Source: Bacteroidota bacterium (lineage in GTDB: Bacteria > Bacteroidota > Bacteroidia > Sphingobacteriales > Sphingobacteriaceae). Taken from it: a DNA stretch of 33,344 nucleotides. Both the position numbers and the translations under genes were made by a program. The stretch is from assembly GCA_018267005.1 (NCBI GenBank), contig JAFDZK010000009.1, positions 1 through 33,344 on the forward strand, in the 5' to 3' direction. The notes beneath the pieces are model-generated. The model was not told where the DNA came from. It did no database searches and saw nothing but the letters and a program-made list of their open reading frames with translations. Below, in pieces: positions 22,012 to 33,304 of this stretch. How positions within the stretch are numbered: the first letter of the stretch is position 1; each line of letters begins with the position of its first letter.

Positions 22012-22830
22012 TCAGCCCTCCTTATCGTACAACACACCCGCTTTTTCAGCCGAAGTTTTAATGCCTTTGATCATCGCCGAGCTAAAACCGTTGTGTTCCA
22101 TCTCGTTCAGGCCCGCAATGGTACAGCCTTTGGGCGAAGTTACTTTGTCGATTTCCTGTTCGGGGTGAGAAGATAATTGCAGCAGCAGATCGGCCGCGCC
22201 CTTAGCCGTTTGAGCGGCCATCTTCAGCGCGTCATGCGCATGGAATCCAATCTCTGTTCCGCCTTGTGATGCCGCACGTATGGAACGCAGGAAGAAGGCT
22301 ATACCACAGGCGCACAGCGCCGTGGCCGAGGTCATTAGTTCTTCATTGATCTGGATGCTTACGCCAACGGTATCAAAAAGCGATTTGACCAGGTTGATAT
22401 TTTCAGCGGAAGCGTTATCCGAAGCAATACAGGTCATGGATTGGCCGATAGCAATAGCGGTATTTGGCATAGCGCGAACTACCTGCACTTCCATGCCCAA
22501 CTGCTGGCGAATATCGGCGCAACTAACTCCCGAAACTACGGAAATAAGCAGGTGCTTTTGTTCCCATATCGCTGGTTTGATCTCATGCAGCAGCTTGTTT
22601 AATTGCTGCGGCAATACGGCCAGCACAACTATGTCGGCATCTTTTACCGCGGCTGAGTTATCCGATGTCACTTTATACCCGTTATCGGCCAAAGTCGACA
22701 ATGCTTTTATGTTACGCCGCGTAAGCGCAATCTGCTCCGGTTCGCAGATGTTTGCCTTCACCAGCCCCTTCGCTAAAGCCAGGCCTATATTACCGCTGCC
22801 CAATATGGCTATTTTATGCTGTATGCTCAT
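22012..22830 (-). CDS. proC: Pyrroline-5-carboxylate reductase
   Basis: ProC reduces pyrroline-5-carboxylate to proline with NAD(P)H. The 272-residue protein has the N-terminal dinucleotide-binding motif ILGSGNIGLALAKGL (about 9-23), VVRAMPNTAIAIGQSM in the middle, and a C-terminal dimer region with GGTEIGFHAHDALKMAAQT and the conserved KVTSPKGCTIAGLNEME. It is encoded 71 bases downstream of argB on the same strand, a link also known from other Bacteroidota arginine clusters. Both pathways start from glutamate, and ornithine can feed proline, so co-expression would balance proline and arginine. Confidence 0.94.
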   Translation of the reverse strand: MSIQHKIAILGSGNIGLALAKGLVKANICEPEQIALTRRNIKALSTLADNGYKVTSDNSAAVKDADIVVLAVLPQQLNKLLHEIKPAIWEQKHLLISVVSGVSCADIRQQLGMEVQVVRAMPNTAIAIGQSMTCIASDNASAENINLVKSLFDTVGVSIQINEELMTSATALCACGIAFFLRSIRAASQGGTEIGFHAHDALKMAAQTAKGAADLLLQLSSHPEQEIDKVTSPKGCTIAGLNEMEHNGFSSAMIKGIKTSAEKAGVLYDKEG

Positions 22831-22901: not shown

Positions 22902-23708
22902 TTAGCTTCCGGCTTTGCTCAACCGCGTGCCAAAAGGTTGTTTCTGCTGTAGCTGACTTAGCTCATCCGATTTGCCAATGATTACCGCCTTAACTCCGCA
23001 GTTGATCGCTGTAAAAGCATTATCCAGTTTAGGTAGCATACCGCTGTGGATAATCTGTTGTTTCTTCAGTTCCTCATATCGCTCCGGATCAATTTCCCTT
23101 ATCACCGATTCTTCGTCGTTAATGTCGTGCAGCACACCTTTCTTCTCAAAACAATAGACCAGTGTCGTTTCATACATGCCGGAAAGCGCCACCGCCAACG
23201 CCGAAGCGATAGTGTCGGCATTGGTGTTTAATAATTGTCCTTCGCCGTCGTGCGTAATCGCGCAAAAAACCGGCACGAAGCCGGCTTCCATCAGTTTACT
23301 GATATTCGTGGCATCGACCGACTTATCGTCAATATCACCCACAAAACCATAATCGATCGTTTTTACCGGGCGTTTTTTTGTTTTGATAAAATTTCCATCC
23401 GCACCCGTTAAGCCGATGGCATCGGTACCGTAACGCTGTAACTGAGCCACTATGTTTTTATTGATCAGCCCGCCGTAAACCATCGTCACCACACGTAAAG
23501 TGTCAATATCCGTTATCCTGCGGCCATCGACCAGCCTGGATTCGATGCCTAATTCTTCCGACAGTTGAGTTGCCACCTTTCCGCCACCGTGTACCAATAT
23601 CTTGAAACCGTTAAGCGCGGTAAAATCCTCCAGGAAATGATGCAGGCTTTCCGAATTATCGATCACATTCCCGCCGATCTTGATAATATGCAGTTGTTTT
23701 TTATCCAT
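22902..23708 (-). CDS. argB: Acetylglutamate (N-acylglutamate) kinase
   Basis: ArgB phosphorylates N-acetylglutamate, or in Bacteroidota possibly N-succinylglutamate, in the second arginine step. The 268-residue protein from the ATG at 23708 carries IIKIGGNVID (8-17), LVHGGGKVATQL, and the nucleotide-binding LLNTNADTIASALAVALS and LPKLDNAFTAINCGVKAVIIG. A TTG two codons upstream is also open, but the ATG is preferred. It lies apart from argG-argF' beyond a plus-strand NADH dehydrogenase, with proC behind it. Substrate choice cannot be read from these motifs. Confidence 0.93.
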   Translation of the reverse strand: MDKKQLHIIKIGGNVIDNSESLHHFLEDFTALNGFKILVHGGGKVATQLSEELGIESRLVDGRRITDIDTLRVVTMVYGGLINKNIVAQLQRYGTDAIGLTGADGNFIKTKKRPVKTIDYGFVGDIDDKSVDATNISKLMEAGFVPVFCAITHDGEGQLLNTNADTIASALAVALSGMYETTLVYCFEKKGVLHDINDEESVIREIDPERYEELKKQQIIHSGMLPKLDNAFTAINCGVKAVIIGKSDELSQLQQKQPFGTRLSKAGS

Positions 23709-23713
23709 ATTCA

Positions 23714-23750
23714 AAGTCCCTCTCCCTGTAGCGAGGGATTTAGGGTGAGG
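23714..23750. repeat. CCCTCTCCCT...AGGGTGAGG palindromic repeat
   Basis: TCCCTCTCCCTGTAGCGAGGGATTTAGGGTGAGG has nested inverse halves (CCCTCTCCCT with AGCGAGGGATTTAGGGTGAGG). It lies just upstream of argB. I recall very similar palindromes scattered between genes in many bacterial genomes, so it is probably a member of a dispersed repeat family. It could affect argB expression. Confidence 0.5.
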
Positions 23751-25879: not shown

Positions 25880-26830
25880 TTAACTCAATCCCTCAAGCAT
25901 TTGCTTAAGCACAGCCTGCGCCGCCCACACACGATTGCCGGCTTCGTGAACCACGATTGAGTTTGGTCCGTCCAATATCTCGTCCGATAATTCTAAATTA
26001 CGGCGCACAGGAAGACAATGCATTACCTTGGCGTCGTTGGTGATTTTAAGCCGGTCGTTCGTCAGTATCCAATCCTCGTTGCCGTCGAACACCTTGCCGT
26101 AAGGCTCATAAGCCGACCAGTTTTTTACGTAAATAAAATCGGCGTGCTGCAGTGCCTCATCCTGGTTATGGGTTATCGTTGCACCTTTGGTGAAATCAGT
26201 ATTTAATGCATAACCTTCGGGATGGGTGACAGTAAAATCCAAATTCGCCTTGCACATCCATTCGGCAAATGAATTTGGTACAGCCTGCGGCAATGCTTTC
26301 ACATGCGGTGCCCAGGTTAACACCACTTTAGGGCGGGGGCGGGTTTTTAATTCTTCAATGGTTACCAGGTCGGCCAGACTTTGTAAGGGGTGACGAGTAG
26401 CCGATTCCAAGCTGACTACCGGCACCCCGCAGTATTTTACGAATTTATTAAAAATGTCTTCACTGTAATCCTGTTCGCGGTCTTTCAGCCCCGGGAACGA
26501 CCGTACACCGATAATATCCGCGTATTCACCCATTACCGCCGCTGCCTCGCGAATATGCTCGACGGTACTGCCATTCATTACTACACCATCACGCAATTCC
26601 AACGCCCAGCCCTCCTTGTCCATGTTCAGCACCATTACGTTCATACCCAAGTTCATAGCAGCCTTTTGCGTACTCATACGGGTACGCAGGCTGGGATTTA
26701 GAAAGATGAGGGCGAGGGTTTTGTTCTTGCCCAGGTCCTGGTGGGCATACGGATCTGCTTTTAATGCCAGCGCCTCTTTTACAAGGGCATTGATATTGGT
26801 AACATCATTTACGGATGAGAAAAGTTTCAT
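25880..26830 (-). CDS. argF': N-acylornithine carbamoyltransferase (acetyl- or succinylornithine type)
   Basis: This 316-residue enzyme transfers a carbamoyl group to an N-acylated ornithine, a variant found in Bacteroidota and Xanthomonas instead of classical ArgF. Key motifs are FLNPSLRTRMS (43-53) for carbamoyl phosphate, WALELRDG (75-82), ESATRHPLQSLADL with its histidine, TWAPHVKALPQAVPNSFAEWM, typical of this subfamily, and MHCLPVRRN near the C-terminus. Residue 90, in GSTVEH, is valine. I recall proline at this place in the succinyl-specific Bacteroides fragilis enzyme and glutamate in the acetyl-specific Xanthomonas enzyme. The specificity is therefore open. The start is 6 bases after argD. 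Confidence 0.94.
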   Translation of the reverse strand: MKLFSSVNDVTNINALVKEALALKADPYAHQDLGKNKTLALIFLNPSLRTRMSTQKAAMNLGMNVMVLNMDKEGWALELRDGVVMNGSTVEHIREAAAVMGEYADIIGVRSFPGLKDREQDYSEDIFNKFVKYCGVPVVSLESATRHPLQSLADLVTIEELKTRPRPKVVLTWAPHVKALPQAVPNSFAEWMCKANLDFTVTHPEGYALNTDFTKGATITHNQDEALQHADFIYVKNWSAYEPYGKVFDGNEDWILTNDRLKITNDAKVMHCLPVRRNLELSDEILDGPNSIVVHEAGNRVWAAQAVLKQMLEGLS

Positions 26831-26836
26831 GGCCTG

Positions 26837-27979
26837 TTATTGTGTAACGGTCGAATGATTCAATACAGTACTAAACGCTTCCAAAAATCTATCGGCGTGC
26901 GCTTTGGTCAGGTTCAAGGCCGGCAGCAGCCTGATCACGTTCGGTTTAGCCTCACCTGTAAAGATGTGGTGTTTATTTAGCAGCTCTTTGCGCGCGTGAG
27001 CCAGTTCCTCTGGTAATTCGATGCCGATCATCAATCCCCGGCCGCGAACTTCTTTTACCTGCTCGAATTTCGTTAGTTCTTCTATCAGGTAACCTCCAAC
27101 GGTTGCTGCATTGTTTAATAATTCTTCCTGTTCGATCACTTCCAGCACCGCCAAACCGGCAGCGCAAGCCAGGTGATTGCCACCAAAAGTAGTACCCAGC
27201 ATACCGTACGAAGGCTGTATTTTGGGCGATATAATAATGCCACCAATAGGGAAACCATTACCCATACCTTTGGCCATGCTGTAAATGTCTGCATTGACAC
27301 CCGCAAAATCATGTGAGAAAAATTTACCGGTCCGTCCGTAACCGCATTGCACCGAGTCCGCAATGAATACGGCATTAAGTTCGTTGCAAAGCGACCTGAT
27401 CTTTTGCAAAAAGCTTTCCGGTGCGACATTTATGCCGCCTACACCTTGTATGCCTTCAATGATAACTGACGAAATATCATTTCCAGCAAAAGCCTGCTCC
27501 AAAGCAGTTTCATCGTTCCAGGGCAGGAAGATCACATTATCGGTTTCGTTTACAGGCGCTACGATCTTGGGGTTGTCGGTAGCAGCAACGGCCAATGACG
27601 TACGTCCGTGAAAGGACTTCCGGAAAGCGATCACTTTCTTTTTGCCATTGTGAAACGAAGCCAGCTTCAATGCATTCTCATTGGCTTCGGCGCCCGAGTT
27701 GCACAAAAACAGTTGGTAATCCTCTTTGCCTGATACTTTACCGAGTTTTTGAGCCAATTCGGTTTGCAGCGGTATCTCAACCGAGTTGGAATAAAAACCT
27801 ATCCTGCGCAGCTGATCTTCCAATCGTTTTACATAATGAGGGTTGGTATGACCAATACTGATCACCGCATGACCGCCGTACAGATCCAGGTACTCGGTAC
27901 CTTTGTCGTCATAAACCAAACTGCCAACACCTTTTACAATGTTAATCGGGTTGATCGGGTAAACATCGAATAGTTTCAT
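26837..27979 (-). CDS. argD: Acetylornithine (N-acylornithine) aminotransferase
   Basis: ArgD uses glutamate to aminate N-acylglutamate semialdehyde and gives N-acylornithine. The 380-residue class-III aminotransferase has K237 as PLP lysine in SMAKGMGNGFPIGG, CNSGAEANENALKLA at 93-107 and FRKSFHGRTSLAVAATD at 119-135. ADSVQCGYGRTG at 207-218 holds D208, which contacts the PLP ring nitrogen; a serine replaces the usual glutamate after it. TTFGGNHLACAAG is in the C-terminal half. The next gene, argF', starts 6 bases later. The motifs do not decide between acetyl and succinyl substrates. Confidence 0.94.
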   Translation of the reverse strand: MKLFDVYPINPINIVKGVGSLVYDDKGTEYLDLYGGHAVISIGHTNPHYVKRLEDQLRRIGFYSNSVEIPLQTELAQKLGKVSGKEDYQLFLCNSGAEANENALKLASFHNGKKKVIAFRKSFHGRTSLAVAATDNPKIVAPVNETDNVIFLPWNDETALEQAFAGNDISSVIIEGIQGVGGINVAPESFLQKIRSLCNELNAVFIADSVQCGYGRTGKFFSHDFAGVNADIYSMAKGMGNGFPIGGIIISPKIQPSYGMLGTTFGGNHLACAAGLAVLEVIEQEELLNNAATVGGYLIEELTKFEQVKEVRGRGLMIGIELPEELAHARKELLNKHHIFTGEAKPNVIRLLPALNLTKAHADRFLEAFSTVLNHSTVTQ

Positions 27980-28042: not shown

Positions 28043-29038
28043 TTAAAAGGCCGACGCCTTAAGCCTGAGGCCAGCCATTTCATTCAGTCCAAACATCAAA
28101 TTCATATTCTGAACTGCCTGTCCTGATGCTCCTTTAAGTAAATTATCCAATATGCTGATTATGAATAGTTTATTTCCATGTTTTTCGACTTGTAAAAAGC
28201 ATTTGTTGGTATTGACGATCTGTTTTAGGTCGATATTGCGTTTGGCAACCTGCGTGAAAGGGTGACCAGTATAATAGTTTTGGTATAGTTCCTGCGCGTC
28301 TTCAGCCGACAGGTCGCTATCTACATAGATCGACGCGATAATGCCTCTCGTAAAATCGCCACGATAAGGCACAAAATTTACTGCTTTATCAAACCCAGGC
28401 TGTAATTGCCTTAACGACTCACCGATCTCTCTCAAATGCTGATGGTCGAATGCCTTATAAACAGACAGGTTATCGTTACGCCAGGTAAAGTGGGTGGTAG
28501 GCGACGGACTCTGCCCTGCACCGGTAGAACCGGTTGTTGCGGTAATATGTACTTCGCTGTTCAAAAGGCCCTTTGATGCCAGCGGCAACAACGCCAGTTG
28601 CAGGCAAGTTGCAAAACAACCGGGATTTGCAATATGATGAGCTTTTTTGATCTCGTCACGATTCAACTCAGGCAACCCGTATACAAAGCTTTTAGCTTTA
28701 TGCTTTGAGCTTTGTGCTAAACGAAAATCCTGGCTTAAATCGATGATCTTGATTCTGTCCGCGATATTGTTGGCATCCAGGAATTTCTTCGCATCACCAT
28801 GTCCGACGCATAAAAACAGTACGTCAATATCATTCGATAGCTCTGATGCAAATTTAAGATCGGTATCGCCGAGCAGGTCGGTATGCACATCGTGCACATA
28901 GTTGCCGGCATTACTGTTGCTGTGCACAAAGGCGATATCCACATTAGGGTGGTTCAGCAGGATGCGCAGCATTTCGCCCCCGGTGTACCCAGCTCCGCCA
29001 ACGATCCCTGCCCGTATTTTAGAGATTGATCCTGTCAT
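28043..29038 (-). CDS. argC: N-acetyl-gamma-glutamyl-phosphate reductase
   Basis: ArgC reduces N-acylglutamyl phosphate to the semialdehyde with NADPH. The 331-residue protein starts MTGSISKIRAGIVGGAGYTGGEMLRILLNHP, giving the nucleotide-binding GxGGxTG loop. The active-site cysteine is C141 in ANPGCFATCLQLALLPL. Further on come TGSTGAGQSPSPTTHF and NFVPYRGDFTRGII, the latter a typical conserved family stretch. Its first 20 bases overlap the end of the cupin gene in a different frame, so translation is probably coupled. The C-terminal GASGQAVQNMNLMFGLNE is intact. Confidence 0.95.
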   Translation of the reverse strand: MTGSISKIRAGIVGGAGYTGGEMLRILLNHPNVDIAFVHSNSNAGNYVHDVHTDLLGDTDLKFASELSNDIDVLFLCVGHGDAKKFLDANNIADRIKIIDLSQDFRLAQSSKHKAKSFVYGLPELNRDEIKKAHHIANPGCFATCLQLALLPLASKGLLNSEVHITATTGSTGAGQSPSPTTHFTWRNDNLSVYKAFDHQHLREIGESLRQLQPGFDKAVNFVPYRGDFTRGIIASIYVDSDLSAEDAQELYQNYYTGHPFTQVAKRNIDLKQIVNTNKCFLQVEKHGNKLFIISILDNLLKGASGQAVQNMNLMFGLNEMAGLRLKASAF

Positions 29039-29369
29039 TTTTTGTAGATGGATAGGAGTATAAAATAAATTCCAGGTCGCTTTGCTCTTTATTGCTGATC
29101 AAATGTTGCTGACCCGGCTTGATCTCGATGCCTTGCTCGGCCTTCAGTTCACTTTCTACACCATCGATGGTAAAAACCGCCCTGCCTTTGAGGATAAAGA
29201 ATATTTGTGTGGCTTTCGCGTGGTAATGCAGTTGCTCGGAAGTATCCGGAGGCATCAGTTCCTGCTTTATCGATAATGCGTCGGTGTCAATAAAATTCCA
29301 GCCGTAGCAATCATCGCCCCATTTATAATGGCTGATGCAATCGCTTTTGGAAAATATTGAGTTCTCCAT
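29019..29369 (-). CDS. Single-domain cupin protein in the arginine operon
   Basis: The 116-residue product is a small cupin barrel. Motif 1 reads with H48 and H50 in QLHYHAK, Q55 at the place where glutamate is usual, and G62. Motif 2 has P85, G86, H89 and N93 in IKPGQQHLISN. Three histidines could bind a metal, with the usual fourth acidic ligand replaced by glutamine. Its start is 5 bases after the argG stop and its end overlaps argC by 20 bases, so it is an integral part of the operon. It might be a regulator or sensor for arginine or an intermediate, but no substrate is shown. I do not know a named gene for it. Confidence 0.82.
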   Translation of the reverse strand: MENSIFSKSDCISHYKWGDDCYGWNFIDTDALSIKQELMPPDTSEQLHYHAKATQIFFILKGRAVFTIDGVESELKAEQGIEIKPGQQHLISNKEQSDLEFILYSYPSTKNDRINL

Positions 29370-29373
29370 GGGT

Positions 29374-30561
29374 CTAACCGTTTACTTTGTGGTAGATCAT
29401 TACCTGGTTCCCAAATATCTTCGAGAAGCCCTTTACATCTTCACCCGTCCAGGCGTTGTTCATTTCGCCGTAGCTGCCGAATTTGCTCGACATCAAGTCG
29501 TGATCCGACTCGATGCCAGTTACCTGGAAGCGATACGGATAAAGCTGTACAAACACTTTGCCGCTTACATTTTGCTGCGTATCGGTCAGGAAGGCCTCAA
29601 TATTACGCATAATAGGATCGTGAAACTGCCCTTCGTGTAGCCAGTTGCCGTAGAACGACGAAAGCTGATCCTTCCACGAAAGCTGCCACTTGGTTAGTAC
29701 GTGTTTTTCAAGCGTATGGTGCGCTTTGATGATGATCATCGGCGCAGCGGCCTCAAATCCCACGCGGCCTTTGATGCCAATAATGGTATCGCCCACGTGT
29801 ATGTCGCGACCAATACCATAAGGTTGAGCAATAGCCTGCAATGCCTGGATAGCTTTGGTTGGATGATCATATTTTTTGCCGTCAAGCGCAATCAACTCAC
29901 CTTTTTCGAAGGTAAGCTCAATGTTTCTTGGCTCGGTACTGGTAACCTGTGTGGGCCATGCTTCTTCGGGTAATCCTAAATTTGAAGTTAGCGTTTCCTT
30001 GCCGCCAACCGATGTTCCCCAGATACCTTTATTGATGGAATATTTGGCCTTCTCGAAATTCATGTCGACGCCATGATCTTTCAGATATTGGATCTCTTCC
30101 TCGCGGCTCAGTTTCAGGTCGCGGATGGGTGTCAGTATCTGCACATTCGGCACCAGGATATTGAAGATCATGTCAAAACGCACCTGGTCGTTACCCGCAC
30201 CGGTGCTGCCGTGCGCCACATATTCGGCGCCGATCTCTTTGGCATAGTTGGCAATAGCGGTAGCCTGGCTCACACGCTCGGCACTTACCGATAGGGGATA
30301 CGTGTTGTTCTTCAGTACGTTACCATAGATAAGGTAGCGCACGCAGGTGTTGTAAAAGTTTTCAGTCTCGTCAACCACATGGTGCGAGGTAACGCCCATG
30401 CGGTAGGCACGCTGCTCCACGTTATACAATTCTTCCTCGCTGAAACCGCCGGTGTTTACAATTACCGAATGTACTTCCAAACCGAGGTCCTGCGTTAAAT
30501 AAATACAGCAGAATGAGGTATCCAATCCGCCGCTGTATGCTAATACTACCTTTTTTTTCAT
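29374..30561 (-). CDS. argG: Argininosuccinate synthase
   Basis: ArgG joins citrulline and aspartate using ATP to give argininosuccinate. The 395-residue protein has the ATP pyrophosphatase loop VLAYSGGLDTSFC at 6-18. It also has YVAHGSTGAGNDQVRFD for the citrulline and aspartate site, and KYSINKGIWGTSVGGKETLTS in the middle. C-terminal LDGKKYDHPTKAIQALQ and GIKGRVGFEAAAPMII are also typical. Because the N-acylornithine route gives N-acylcitrulline, a deacylase must act before this enzyme; it is not in the window. An 89-base gap with hairpin repeats separates it from the GNAT gene upstream. Confidence 0.96.
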   Translation of the reverse strand: MKKKVVLAYSGGLDTSFCCIYLTQDLGLEVHSVIVNTGGFSEEELYNVEQRAYRMGVTSHHVVDETENFYNTCVRYLIYGNVLKNNTYPLSVSAERVSQATAIANYAKEIGAEYVAHGSTGAGNDQVRFDMIFNILVPNVQILTPIRDLKLSREEEIQYLKDHGVDMNFEKAKYSINKGIWGTSVGGKETLTSNLGLPEEAWPTQVTSTEPRNIELTFEKGELIALDGKKYDHPTKAIQALQAIAQPYGIGRDIHVGDTIIGIKGRVGFEAAAPMIIIKAHHTLEKHVLTKWQLSWKDQLSSFYGNWLHEGQFHDPIMRNIEAFLTDTQQNVSGKVFVQLYPYRFQVTGIESDHDLMSSKFGSYGEMNNAWTGEDVKGFSKIFGNQVMIYHKVNG

Positions 30562-30650: not shown

Positions 30651-31310
30651 TTACCTCTCGTCCTTCGCTTCTATCTTATCCAAACCTCTTTTTATCGCAT
30701 TTTCTATCTTTTCCAGCAAGGTAGCCTTATGCGTTATCTTTTTCATCTTCTCCTCGAATTCCTTCTGCTTTTCTGCCGGATCATACAACATGGCGGTGCA
30801 CATGCAGTTCTTACGTTCCTTGCTCATCAGTATGTCGTAATTAACGCAGCTTTTACAGCCGGCCCAAAAATCCTCGTCCTGGGTAAGCTCTGAATAGGTT
30901 ACAGGCTCGTAACCCAGTTCTGAGTTGATCTTCATTACTGCCAAACCCGTTGTCAGGCCAAATATTTTGGCCTCAGGATATTTTTTCCGTGATAGTTGAA
31001 ATATCTTTTGCTTGATAGCCTTGGCCAGACCCGATTTTCTGAACTGCGGATTAACGATCAAACCTGAATTAGCCACAAACTGCCCGTGGCTCCAGGTTTC
31101 AATGTAACAAAAACCCGCCCAGGTGCCGTCTTTGTGCAGCGCGATAACCGCTTTACCTTCAAGCATTTTATTGGCCACGTATTCGGCCGATCTTTTGGCT
31201 ATACCCGTCCCCCGCGCCTTAGCCGACTCGGCCATTTCGTCGCAGATCATCTGCGCGAAATCAACGTGCTGGGCCGAGGCAACCTGTATATCAAAATCCT
31301 GTATGTCCAT
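30651..31310 (-). CDS. GNAT family N-acyltransferase, candidate first enzyme of arginine synthesis
   Basis: The 219-residue product is a GNAT acyltransferase. Its acetyl-CoA-binding turn is NPQFRKSGLAKAIKQKIF (residues 87-104), and the central strand includes AVIALHKDGTWAGFCYIETW. After the GNAT fold is a cysteine cluster: C152, C155, C169 and C171 (C-x2-C-x13-C-x-C), possibly a metal site. It heads the argG-cupin-argC-argD-argF' group. A matching gene beside argG in Bacteroides thetaiotaomicron has been proposed, as I recall, to be the N-succinylglutamate synthase. The same role, making N-acetyl- or N-succinylglutamate, is the best guess here. No argA- or argJ-like gene is otherwise in the window. 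Confidence 0.85.
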   Translation of the reverse strand: MDIQDFDIQVASAQHVDFAQMICDEMAESAKARGTGIAKRSAEYVANKMLEGKAVIALHKDGTWAGFCYIETWSHGQFVANSGLIVNPQFRKSGLAKAIKQKIFQLSRKKYPEAKIFGLTTGLAVMKINSELGYEPVTYSELTQDEDFWAGCKSCVNYDILMSKERKNCMCTAMLYDPAEKQKEFEEKMKKITHKATLLEKIENAIKRGLDKIEAKDER

Positions 31311-31731: not shown

Positions 31732-31733
31732 TC
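31656..31733. repeat. Inverted repeat of AACAATTTAACAAT type after the oxidoreductase gene
   Basis: GATTGTTTTATTGTTGT (31656-31672) is almost the inverse of ACAACAATTTAGCAATC (31717-31733), with only three mismatches in 17. Between them, GTGTTATTG and CAATTTAAC extend the complementarity. The right arm overlaps the last bases of the oxidoreductase stop. It can form a long AT-rich hairpin, so it could serve as a terminator for that gene. Confidence 0.75.
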
Positions 31734-32691
31734 ATCTTTTACCAACAATATCGGCAATGATCATCTCAGCATGTATCCTCGAATTTTCGATAAACCACAG
31801 GTGCGTATCCATGCCGCCGCAAACCACGCCGGCCAGGTACATGCCTTTTTGGTTGGTTTCCATGGTTTTCAGATCGTACTCGGGAAGAAATTTTCCATCG
31901 GATGAAAGGCGTATACCCAGCTTTTCCAGGAACCCGAAGTTGGGCTGATAACCCGTCATGGCCATTACAAAGTCGTTGGGTATGGTGATCTGGCCTTCAG
32001 GTGTTTGTATATCGACTTCGTTTTCGCGGATGGCTGTAACATGTGAATTAAAATATGCTTTGATGCTTCCTTCCTTGATACGATTCAACACATCGGGCCG
32101 CACCCAGTATTTTACGCGGTGACTTACTTCGGCATCGCGTATTACCAGCGTTACCTCGGCGCCTTTACGGTAAGTTTCCAAAGCTACGTCGATAGCCGAA
32201 TTGCTCGACCCGATTACTACTACCTTTTGCAGGGCATAGTAATGCGGGTCTTTATAATAATGCTTTACTTTTGGCAGGTCCTCGCCCGGGATATTCAGCT
32301 TGTTGGGAATATCATAAAAGCCCGTCGCCACGATGACATTTTTAGCCTCATAAGTGGCTTTATTGGTGCCAATATCAAAATGCCCGTTCGTTTGGGTAAC
32401 GGAAATTACTTCTTCGAACAGGTTTACGTTTAAATGGTTGGAAAAAGCCACCCGGCGGTAGTACTCCAGCGCTTCATCGCGGTTGGGTTTGTTGCGTATC
32501 GTAACAAAAGGTATACCGCCGATCTCCAGCAATTCTGACGTGGAGAAAAACGTCATGGTGGAAGGGTAGTTGTACAGCGAATTAACTAAGCAGCCTTTTT
32601 CCACAACCTGGTAAGTTAAACCGGCCTTCTGCGCGGCCAGCGCACAAGCTAAACCAATGGGGCCGCCGCCTGTAATGAGTATATCGAGCAT
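31732..32691 (-). CDS. ypdA: YpdA family putative bacillithiol disulfide reductase
   Basis: This 319-residue FAD/NAD(P)-dependent oxidoreductase starts MLDILITGGGPIGLACALAAQK, with the GGGPIG FAD-binding motif at 8-13. I use the ATG at 32691, as the upstream part of the frame has no fold and lies in a repeat. VVVIGSSNSAIDVALE gives the NADPH-binding loop, and MAMTGYQPNFGFLEKLGI and GMYLAGVVCGG follow. The CxxC redox pair of thioredoxin reductases is lacking. YpdA/Bdr in Bacillus keeps bacillithiol reduced. Bacillithiol or a similar thiol in Bacteroidota is inferred from the family. Confidence 0.85.
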   Translation of the reverse strand: MLDILITGGGPIGLACALAAQKAGLTYQVVEKGCLVNSLYNYPSTMTFFSTSELLEIGGIPFVTIRNKPNRDEALEYYRRVAFSNHLNVNLFEEVISVTQTNGHFDIGTNKATYEAKNVIVATGFYDIPNKLNIPGEDLPKVKHYYKDPHYYALQKVVVIGSSNSAIDVALETYRKGAEVTLVIRDAEVSHRVKYWVRPDVLNRIKEGSIKAYFNSHVTAIRENEVDIQTPEGQITIPNDFVMAMTGYQPNFGFLEKLGIRLSSDGKFLPEYDLKTMETNQKGMYLAGVVCGGMDTHLWFIENSRIHAEMIIADIVGKR

Positions 32692-32706
32692 ATCTTTTTT
32701 GTTATA

Positions 32707-32774
32707 AGTCCATAGACCATAGTCGATAGTCCATGGCAATTCTGGAGTTATATGTGGACCATTGACTATGGACT
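32707..32774. repeat. Inverted repeat of AGTCCATAGACCATAGTC type
   Basis: AGTCCATAGACCATAGTC (32707-32724) is the inverse of GACCATTGACTATGGACT (32757-32774) except for three bases. Related GATAGTCCATGG words lie between. The right arm contains the stop codon of the small GNAT gene at 32766-32768, and the left end adjoins the oxidoreductase start. Confidence 0.75.
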
Positions 32775-33173: not shown

Positions 33174-33194
33174 GACGAAAAGAAATAAAAAAAA

Positions 33195-33292
33195 GGGTAA
33201 GCTACTTTTATCGCACCGCTACAACCCTCTACCCTTGCTGCGTTCCCACCCTGGGGGAGTTCAAGAGGAGCTGGTCGTAAAAGACTTACCCC
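33195..33292 (-). ncRNA. ffs: Signal recognition particle RNA (4.5S type)
   Basis: Read on the minus strand, about 98 bases fold as an SRP RNA hairpin. The terminal stem pairs GGGTAAG with CTTACCC (33285-33291 and 33195-33201). The conserved apical part is present: a GGAA tetraloop (33246-33243) flanked by GTG and CGC, then CAGG before and AGCA after, as in the bacterial SRP54/Ffh-binding site. The three stem pairs next to the loop differ from the E. coli ones but keep pairing. A run of eight T residues on the minus strand follows (33194-33187), like a Rho-independent end. It works with the Ffh protein to target membrane proteins. Confidence 0.93.
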
Positions 33293-33296
33293 GGCG

Positions 33297-33304
33297 CAAA
33301 TATA
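33297..33304 (-). promoter_or_regulatory. Candidate -7 promoter element for the SRP RNA
   Basis: On the minus strand this reads TATATTTG, an exact fit to the Bacteroidota consensus TAnnTTTG. It ends 5 bases before the expected RNA start, the correct distance. No clear TTTG was seen at -33. Confidence 0.75.

Follow-up and report, generated by a model that had tools for sequence, protein, structure and literature searches.

The enzyme that opens arginine synthesis in the Bacteroidota, a major phylum of gut and soil bacteria, is known from genetics and genomic context alone. In the sections of the GapMind account that deal with Bacteroides thetaiotaomicron, BT3761 was proposed as the probable N-succinylglutamate synthase, and the pathway genes of this species, including the GNAT homologue, were important in minimal medium unless arginine was added (PMC7311316). 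The same sections state that ArgB and the carbamoyltransferase of B. fragilis take succinylated substrates (PMC7311316). A further publication, in the part concerned with this family, named it ArgA2, reported its co-occurrence with ArgF3, and cited fitness data (PMC9026213). Cabys_1732 of Caldithrix abyssi (argAGCBEH locus) is >50% identical to BT3761, and thus of the same family by reported identity, and its reported donor is acetyl-CoA, making it an N-acetylglutamate synthase according to unpublished results cited in PMC5317091. Apart from this one remark on unpublished results, we found no enzymology or structure for family members in the literature, nor any report of metal in the ArgA2/BT3761 family. 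Given that BT3761 has already been predicted in print, the function as such is not new, and the attribution given in the preliminary description, which placed the proposed N-succinylglutamate synthase of B. thetaiotaomicron beside argG, is correct (PMC7311316, PMC9026213).

The GNAT gene and its operon

The gene analyzed here lies in a 33,344-nt stretch of a Sphingobacteriaceae genome (contig JAFDZK010000009.1; the whole stretch is referred to as the window), from a species whose closest named relatives are Mucilaginibacter. It occupies positions 30651-31310, as previously placed, on the minus strand, with an ATG start at 31310 and a stop codon ending at 30651; translation of the same interval on the plus strand meets five stops. 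The 219 a.a. product is a single-domain protein matching the GNAT domain in Pfam (PF00583, 23.2 bits against a cutoff of 20.7), and is a member of the ArgA2/BT3761 family by homology and by its location beside argG, with a predicted function as N-succinylglutamate synthase. We noted nothing essential that differs between ArgA2/BT3761 and the window protein. A search of NCBIfam returned no specific name, and neither Pfam nor NCBIfam has a model dedicated to the family, with the generic N-acetyltransferase model NF005840 matching 85 of 105 family members weakly. The closest sequences with solved structures belong to small, distant GNATs such as PA4794, and no solved structure of any close relative was found.

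The GNAT cofactor turn noted earlier is present exactly as given, forming the predicted CoA pyrophosphate-binding loop at residues 87-100 (NPQFRKSGLAKAIK, nt. 31011-31052, minus strand), where the pattern R91-K-S-G94-L-A96 fits the R/Q-x-x-G-x-G/A signature of the GNAT superfamily. For comparison, we collected 172 distinct full-length homologues from relatives, a sample of the phylum, and genome contigs (pairwise identity: median 63%, minimum 40%), among which R91 is invariant. A candidate general base, Glu71 on strand beta4 (nt. 31098-31100, minus strand), is conserved as Glu in 167 of the 172, with Ser in four diverged paralogues and Asp in one sequence.

The gene heads an arginine operon, as had been proposed, with the genes running leftward on the minus strand. 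It is followed after 89 bp by argG (argininosuccinate synthase, nt. 29374-30561; TIGR00032 over cutoff) and, 4 bp further, by a gene encoding a small cupin protein (nt. 29019-29369; PF07883), which overlaps by 20 bp with argC (N-acylglutamyl-phosphate reductase, nt. 28043-29038; TIGR01850 over cutoff). After 63 bp lies an argD-like N-acylornithine aminotransferase gene (nt. 26837-27979; best match TIGR00707, under its cutoff), then, after 6 bp, argF' (N-succinylornithine carbamoyltransferase type, nt. 25880-26830), and, after a further 53 bp, an FMN-binding PaiB-like gene. Beyond this, an NDH-2-like gene on the plus strand splits the operon from argB (N-acylglutamate kinase, nt. 22902-23714; TIGR00761 over cutoff) and proC (pyrroline-5-carboxylate reductase, nt. 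22012-22830), both on the minus strand. The argE and argH genes adjoin each other on another contig. In a B. finegoldii locus with the order argR-GNAT-argG-argC-argD-proC, the GNAT is 60% identical to the window protein and carries the cysteine motif discussed below; compared with this locus, the window operon adds argF' and the cupin gene and has no adjacent argR. Across the loci in which a downstream arginine gene was found, the next one is argG in every case (143/143).

Several other features of the neighborhood were observed. The cupin gene occupies the same place between argG and argC in several Sphingobacteriaceae and Chitinophagaceae operons. Upstream of the GNAT gene, a putative bacillithiol disulfide reductase of the YpdA family is encoded on the minus strand (nt. 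31732-32739), an adjacency shared by many relatives of the genus and rarely seen outside it. A Bacteroidales small SRP RNA gene lies at nt. 33191-33298 on the same strand (RF04183, 108.7 bits).

Entry into arginine synthesis and the acyl group

The operon had been described as otherwise lacking an acylglutamate synthase, which a genome-wide search bore out. In the genome (95.8% complete), ArgJ had no match, and all matches to the full-length ArgA model TIGR01890 were under its cutoff, comprising the ArgB kinase in the window and two short ORFs elsewhere that match the GNAT part only. With no ArgJ and only sub-cutoff ArgA matches, the GNAT protein stands alone as a good candidate for the first step. 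Classical ArgA, whose reaction on glutamate the window protein is predicted to share, consists of an amino-acid-kinase domain and a GNAT domain, whereas the window protein is a GNAT without the kinase domain.

An indication of the acyl group comes from the partner carbamoyltransferase. Three residues separate the acetylornithine enzymes (AOTCase: Glu92, Asn185, Lys302) from the succinylornithine enzymes (SOTCase: A/S/P/V/Q, P, and V/I/E, respectively; reviewed in PMC4581275), and the window ArgF' carries V, P, and E at the equivalent positions. Its match to the B. fragilis SOTCase (E 6e-109) is also much stronger than that to the Xanthomonas campestris AOTCase (E 3e-54). Among 99 relatives of ArgF', the residues seen at position 92 are V, A, T, S, P, and Q, with E absent throughout; 95 have a published SOTCase residue there and the other four have T, and position 185 is P throughout (99/99). 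In a sample of 395 genomes from the phylum, 158 carry the GNAT, including 140 of the 141 genomes with a close relative of ArgF' (E < 1e-80; tallied by hand). The sole exception, G410, has the ArgF' relative without the GNAT, and a repeat search of this genome was likewise negative. The remaining 18 genomes with the GNAT encode a more distant carbamoyltransferase, with A at position 92 in the three that were read. Together, the SOTCase-type residues and the co-occurrence of the GNAT with ArgF' support succinylated intermediates.

The carbamoyltransferase evidence does not by itself prove the donor, because Cabys_1732, a member of the same family, was reported in unpublished work as an N-acetylglutamate synthase; acetyl-CoA may thus serve as the donor for some family members. 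That the window protein is itself an N-acetylglutamate synthase, or promiscuous rather than a dedicated succinyltransferase, would also agree with the closest GNAT fold being that of N-acetylglutamate synthase (NAGS; see below). Nevertheless, we consider this unlikely, as the carbamoyltransferase with which it is paired belongs to the succinyl type, judged by the residues of both the window enzyme and its relatives, and the B. fragilis ArgB and carbamoyltransferase work on succinylated substrates. The GNAT protein probably starts arginine synthesis in most Bacteroidota by succinylating glutamate; the arginine-entry role proposed earlier is backed by published genetics and context, with succinyl-CoA the probable donor. 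In the mechanism we propose, the enzyme would open the pathway as an acyl-CoA:L-glutamate N-acyltransferase, in all likelihood taking the acyl group from succinyl-CoA. The R91-x-x-G-x-A loop of the GNAT core would hold the CoA thioester. Attack of the glutamate alpha-amino group on the acyl carbon would be aided by a base, which may be E71 of strand beta4.

The four-cysteine motif

The C-terminal part of the protein contains the motif C152-x2-C155-x13-C169-x-C171 (nt. 30798-30857, minus strand), a predicted metal (zinc) site whose cysteines lie at exactly the positions originally listed. All four cysteines are present in all 172 homologues (in one, a base at C169 is ambiguous), and the spacer between the CxxC and CxC pairs is exactly 13 residues in every one. 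The two further cysteines of the protein provide an internal control, with C23 kept in 58% and C68 in 91% of homologues and replaced by Ser, Thr, Ala, Val, or Leu in some of the others. A chance motif or non-conserved cysteines are ruled out by this invariance and by shuffling of the protein, in which a C-x2-C/C-x-C set arose in only 75 of 200,000 shuffles, although any spacer of 8-20 was allowed; the loss of the cysteines among homologues, named at the outset as the result that would refute the idea, did not occur. The motif is likewise kept in ten paralogues that are 54-61% identical to the window protein, four of them (L221-L224) with Ser at the position of Glu71, and in three GNAT-ArgG fusion proteins. 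It is found in the anaerobes B. finegoldii (L231) and Alistipes (L106) and also in Mucilaginibacter and Pedobacter, which are aerobic genera. Two homologues with internal stops (G131 and G174) were inspected for selenocysteine or readthrough, which was rejected because the stops fall past the domain.

An AlphaFold model built from 11 sequences was weak in the cysteine motif, and one built from 105 sequences reached a mean pLDDT of 95, with values of 89-97 for the 10-residue blocks at the motif. In this confident model, the motif sits between the last helix and the last strand of the GNAT core, spanning the end of helix 146-152, a short helix at 158-163, and the start of the last strand at residue 172. 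Among the best 1000 Foldseek matches, the best solved structure is the N-acetylglutamate synthase 2r8v (Z 17.1, rmsd 2.7 over 152 residues, 19% identity), followed by ArgA 5yge (Z 16.0), PA2271 (15.9), and Rv2747 (15.8). Archaeal Ard1-type GNATs score close behind NAGS (Z 15.7 vs. 17.1), and thus the fold alone is no proof of substrate. Kinship of the cysteine stretch with a solved metal site was also considered and rejected, as residues 138-182 alone gave no credible match in the PDB.

In the Neisseria gonorrhoeae NAGS, Arg425 and Ser427 bind the carboxylates of glutamate (PMC4490483). Counting back from the alignment end (model residue 179, chain residue 435) and assuming no gaps, these two residues would map near C169 and C171, which suggests that the cysteine site lies where classical NAGS holds glutamate and that the acceptor site is probably built differently from that of NAGS.

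The invariance of the cysteines makes metal binding likely, and CxxC plus CxC at fixed spacing is a typical metal-site pattern. Given the motif, we judge zinc to be the likely metal. The first cysteine pair lies where the last core helix ends and the second just ahead of the last strand; all four would bind one structural zinc, pinning the loop that makes up the acceptor (glutamate) side of the pocket. A comparable arrangement is known in the arginyltransferase ATE1, which likewise has a GNAT fold and a conserved four-cysteine metal site, in that case stabilizing the substrate cleft. The ATE1 motif is CX2C-Xn-CC and lies in the N-terminal domain, whereas that of the window protein is CX2C-x13-CxC in the C-terminal part of the core, and the ATE1-type zinc-site pattern does not match the window protein.

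The strict conservation could also be read without any metal, with the cysteines kept for packing or as a nucleophile. Indeed, F148, W149, N157, L161, and T172 around the motif are invariant too, indicating that the whole stretch is strongly constrained. However, cysteines outside the motif are replaceable in some homologues, and four-cysteine sets of this kind, at constant spacing, are characteristic of metal sites, leaving the metal-free reading very unlikely in our estimation.

The preliminary description had envisaged a metal-bound or redox-sensing acyltransferase; the first part is likely from the invariance of the cysteines, and we found nothing specific for the second, no sensor-specific feature being identified in the GNAT protein. 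Were the cysteines to hold an Fe-S cluster or act as a reversible disulfide or zinc redox switch, oxidative stress or metal starvation would stop the first step of the pathway. Such a role would fit the four invariant cysteines, the thiol reductase-like gene of the YpdA family that precedes the GNAT gene in the same orientation, both in the window and in many relatives of the genus, and the precedent of ATE1, for whose four-cysteine site iron and zinc have both been reported. Yet aerobic genera, anaerobes, and paralogues with a changed candidate general base all keep the motif to the same degree, without variation, and the adjacency to YpdA is mainly confined to one genus. We regard an Fe-S cluster or redox switch as improbable and less likely than structural zinc; conservation through duplication, fusion, transfer, and both oxygen regimes points to a structural part rather than a sensor. 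It is similarly quite doubtful that the committed arginine enzyme of most Bacteroidota is a metalloenzyme whose Cys4 site in the glutamate pocket reports metal or thiol-redox status; if true, this site would be a control point missing from classical NAGS.

On balance, the best overall explanation, which we hold to be fairly likely, is a succinyl-donor arginine-entry acyltransferase with a structural-zinc Cys4 site. The invariant Cys4 site appears to be undescribed in the literature, the available portions of the published ArgA2/BT3761 accounts being silent on cysteines. It would explain a possible failure of expression or assays without zinc or reductant, makes a simple test of metal and activity possible, and provides a sequence signature that sets the family apart from the mass of unnamed GNATs.

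Fused, duplicated, and displaced copies

Three genomes, all from one family, have the GNAT and ArgG fused in frame as a single ORF of 588-630 a.a. (L140:860-2749, L141:705-2507, and L142:739-2502; minus strand), joining the first step and a late step of arginine synthesis. Some relatives of the genus (L026-L029 and L225) carry a second, diverged GNAT that is 54-57% identical to the window protein and retains the four cysteines. This gene directly adjoins one encoding an ArgE-like M20 deacylase (56-62% identical to the ArgE of the Pedobacter operon), and the two may form a putative acyl-on/acyl-off pair outside the arginine operon. In some genomes of the same class (L221-L224), a second GNAT has the beta4 sequence YIETW changed to FISSW or FISAW, replacing Glu71 with Ser and retaining the four cysteines; this protein may have a different substrate or a regulatory role.

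A GNAT with the complete cysteine motif was also found in a huge-phage record (LR756504.1, 636,363 bp; L230:7998-8600), and an identical sequence is present in IMG/VR (L233:6001-6603). It neighbors genes for a fructose-1,6-bisphosphatase and for phage exonuclease and sigma-factor functions, and no ArgG turned up in the LR756504.1 record. The phage copy may be an auxiliary metabolic gene serving arginine synthesis.

At eight loci from several other families of the phylum, the GNAT lies outside any arginine cluster among unrelated neighbors. One genome (G204, L227:1468-1614) has a short GNAT remnant, apparently a decayed duplicate, in which only the C169/C171 region is left. Finally, a record labeled as a B. 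finegoldii plasmid (NZ_OY725909.1, the source of L231) carries the arginine operon together with rhamnose genes, and may therefore be a mislabeled chromosomal piece.
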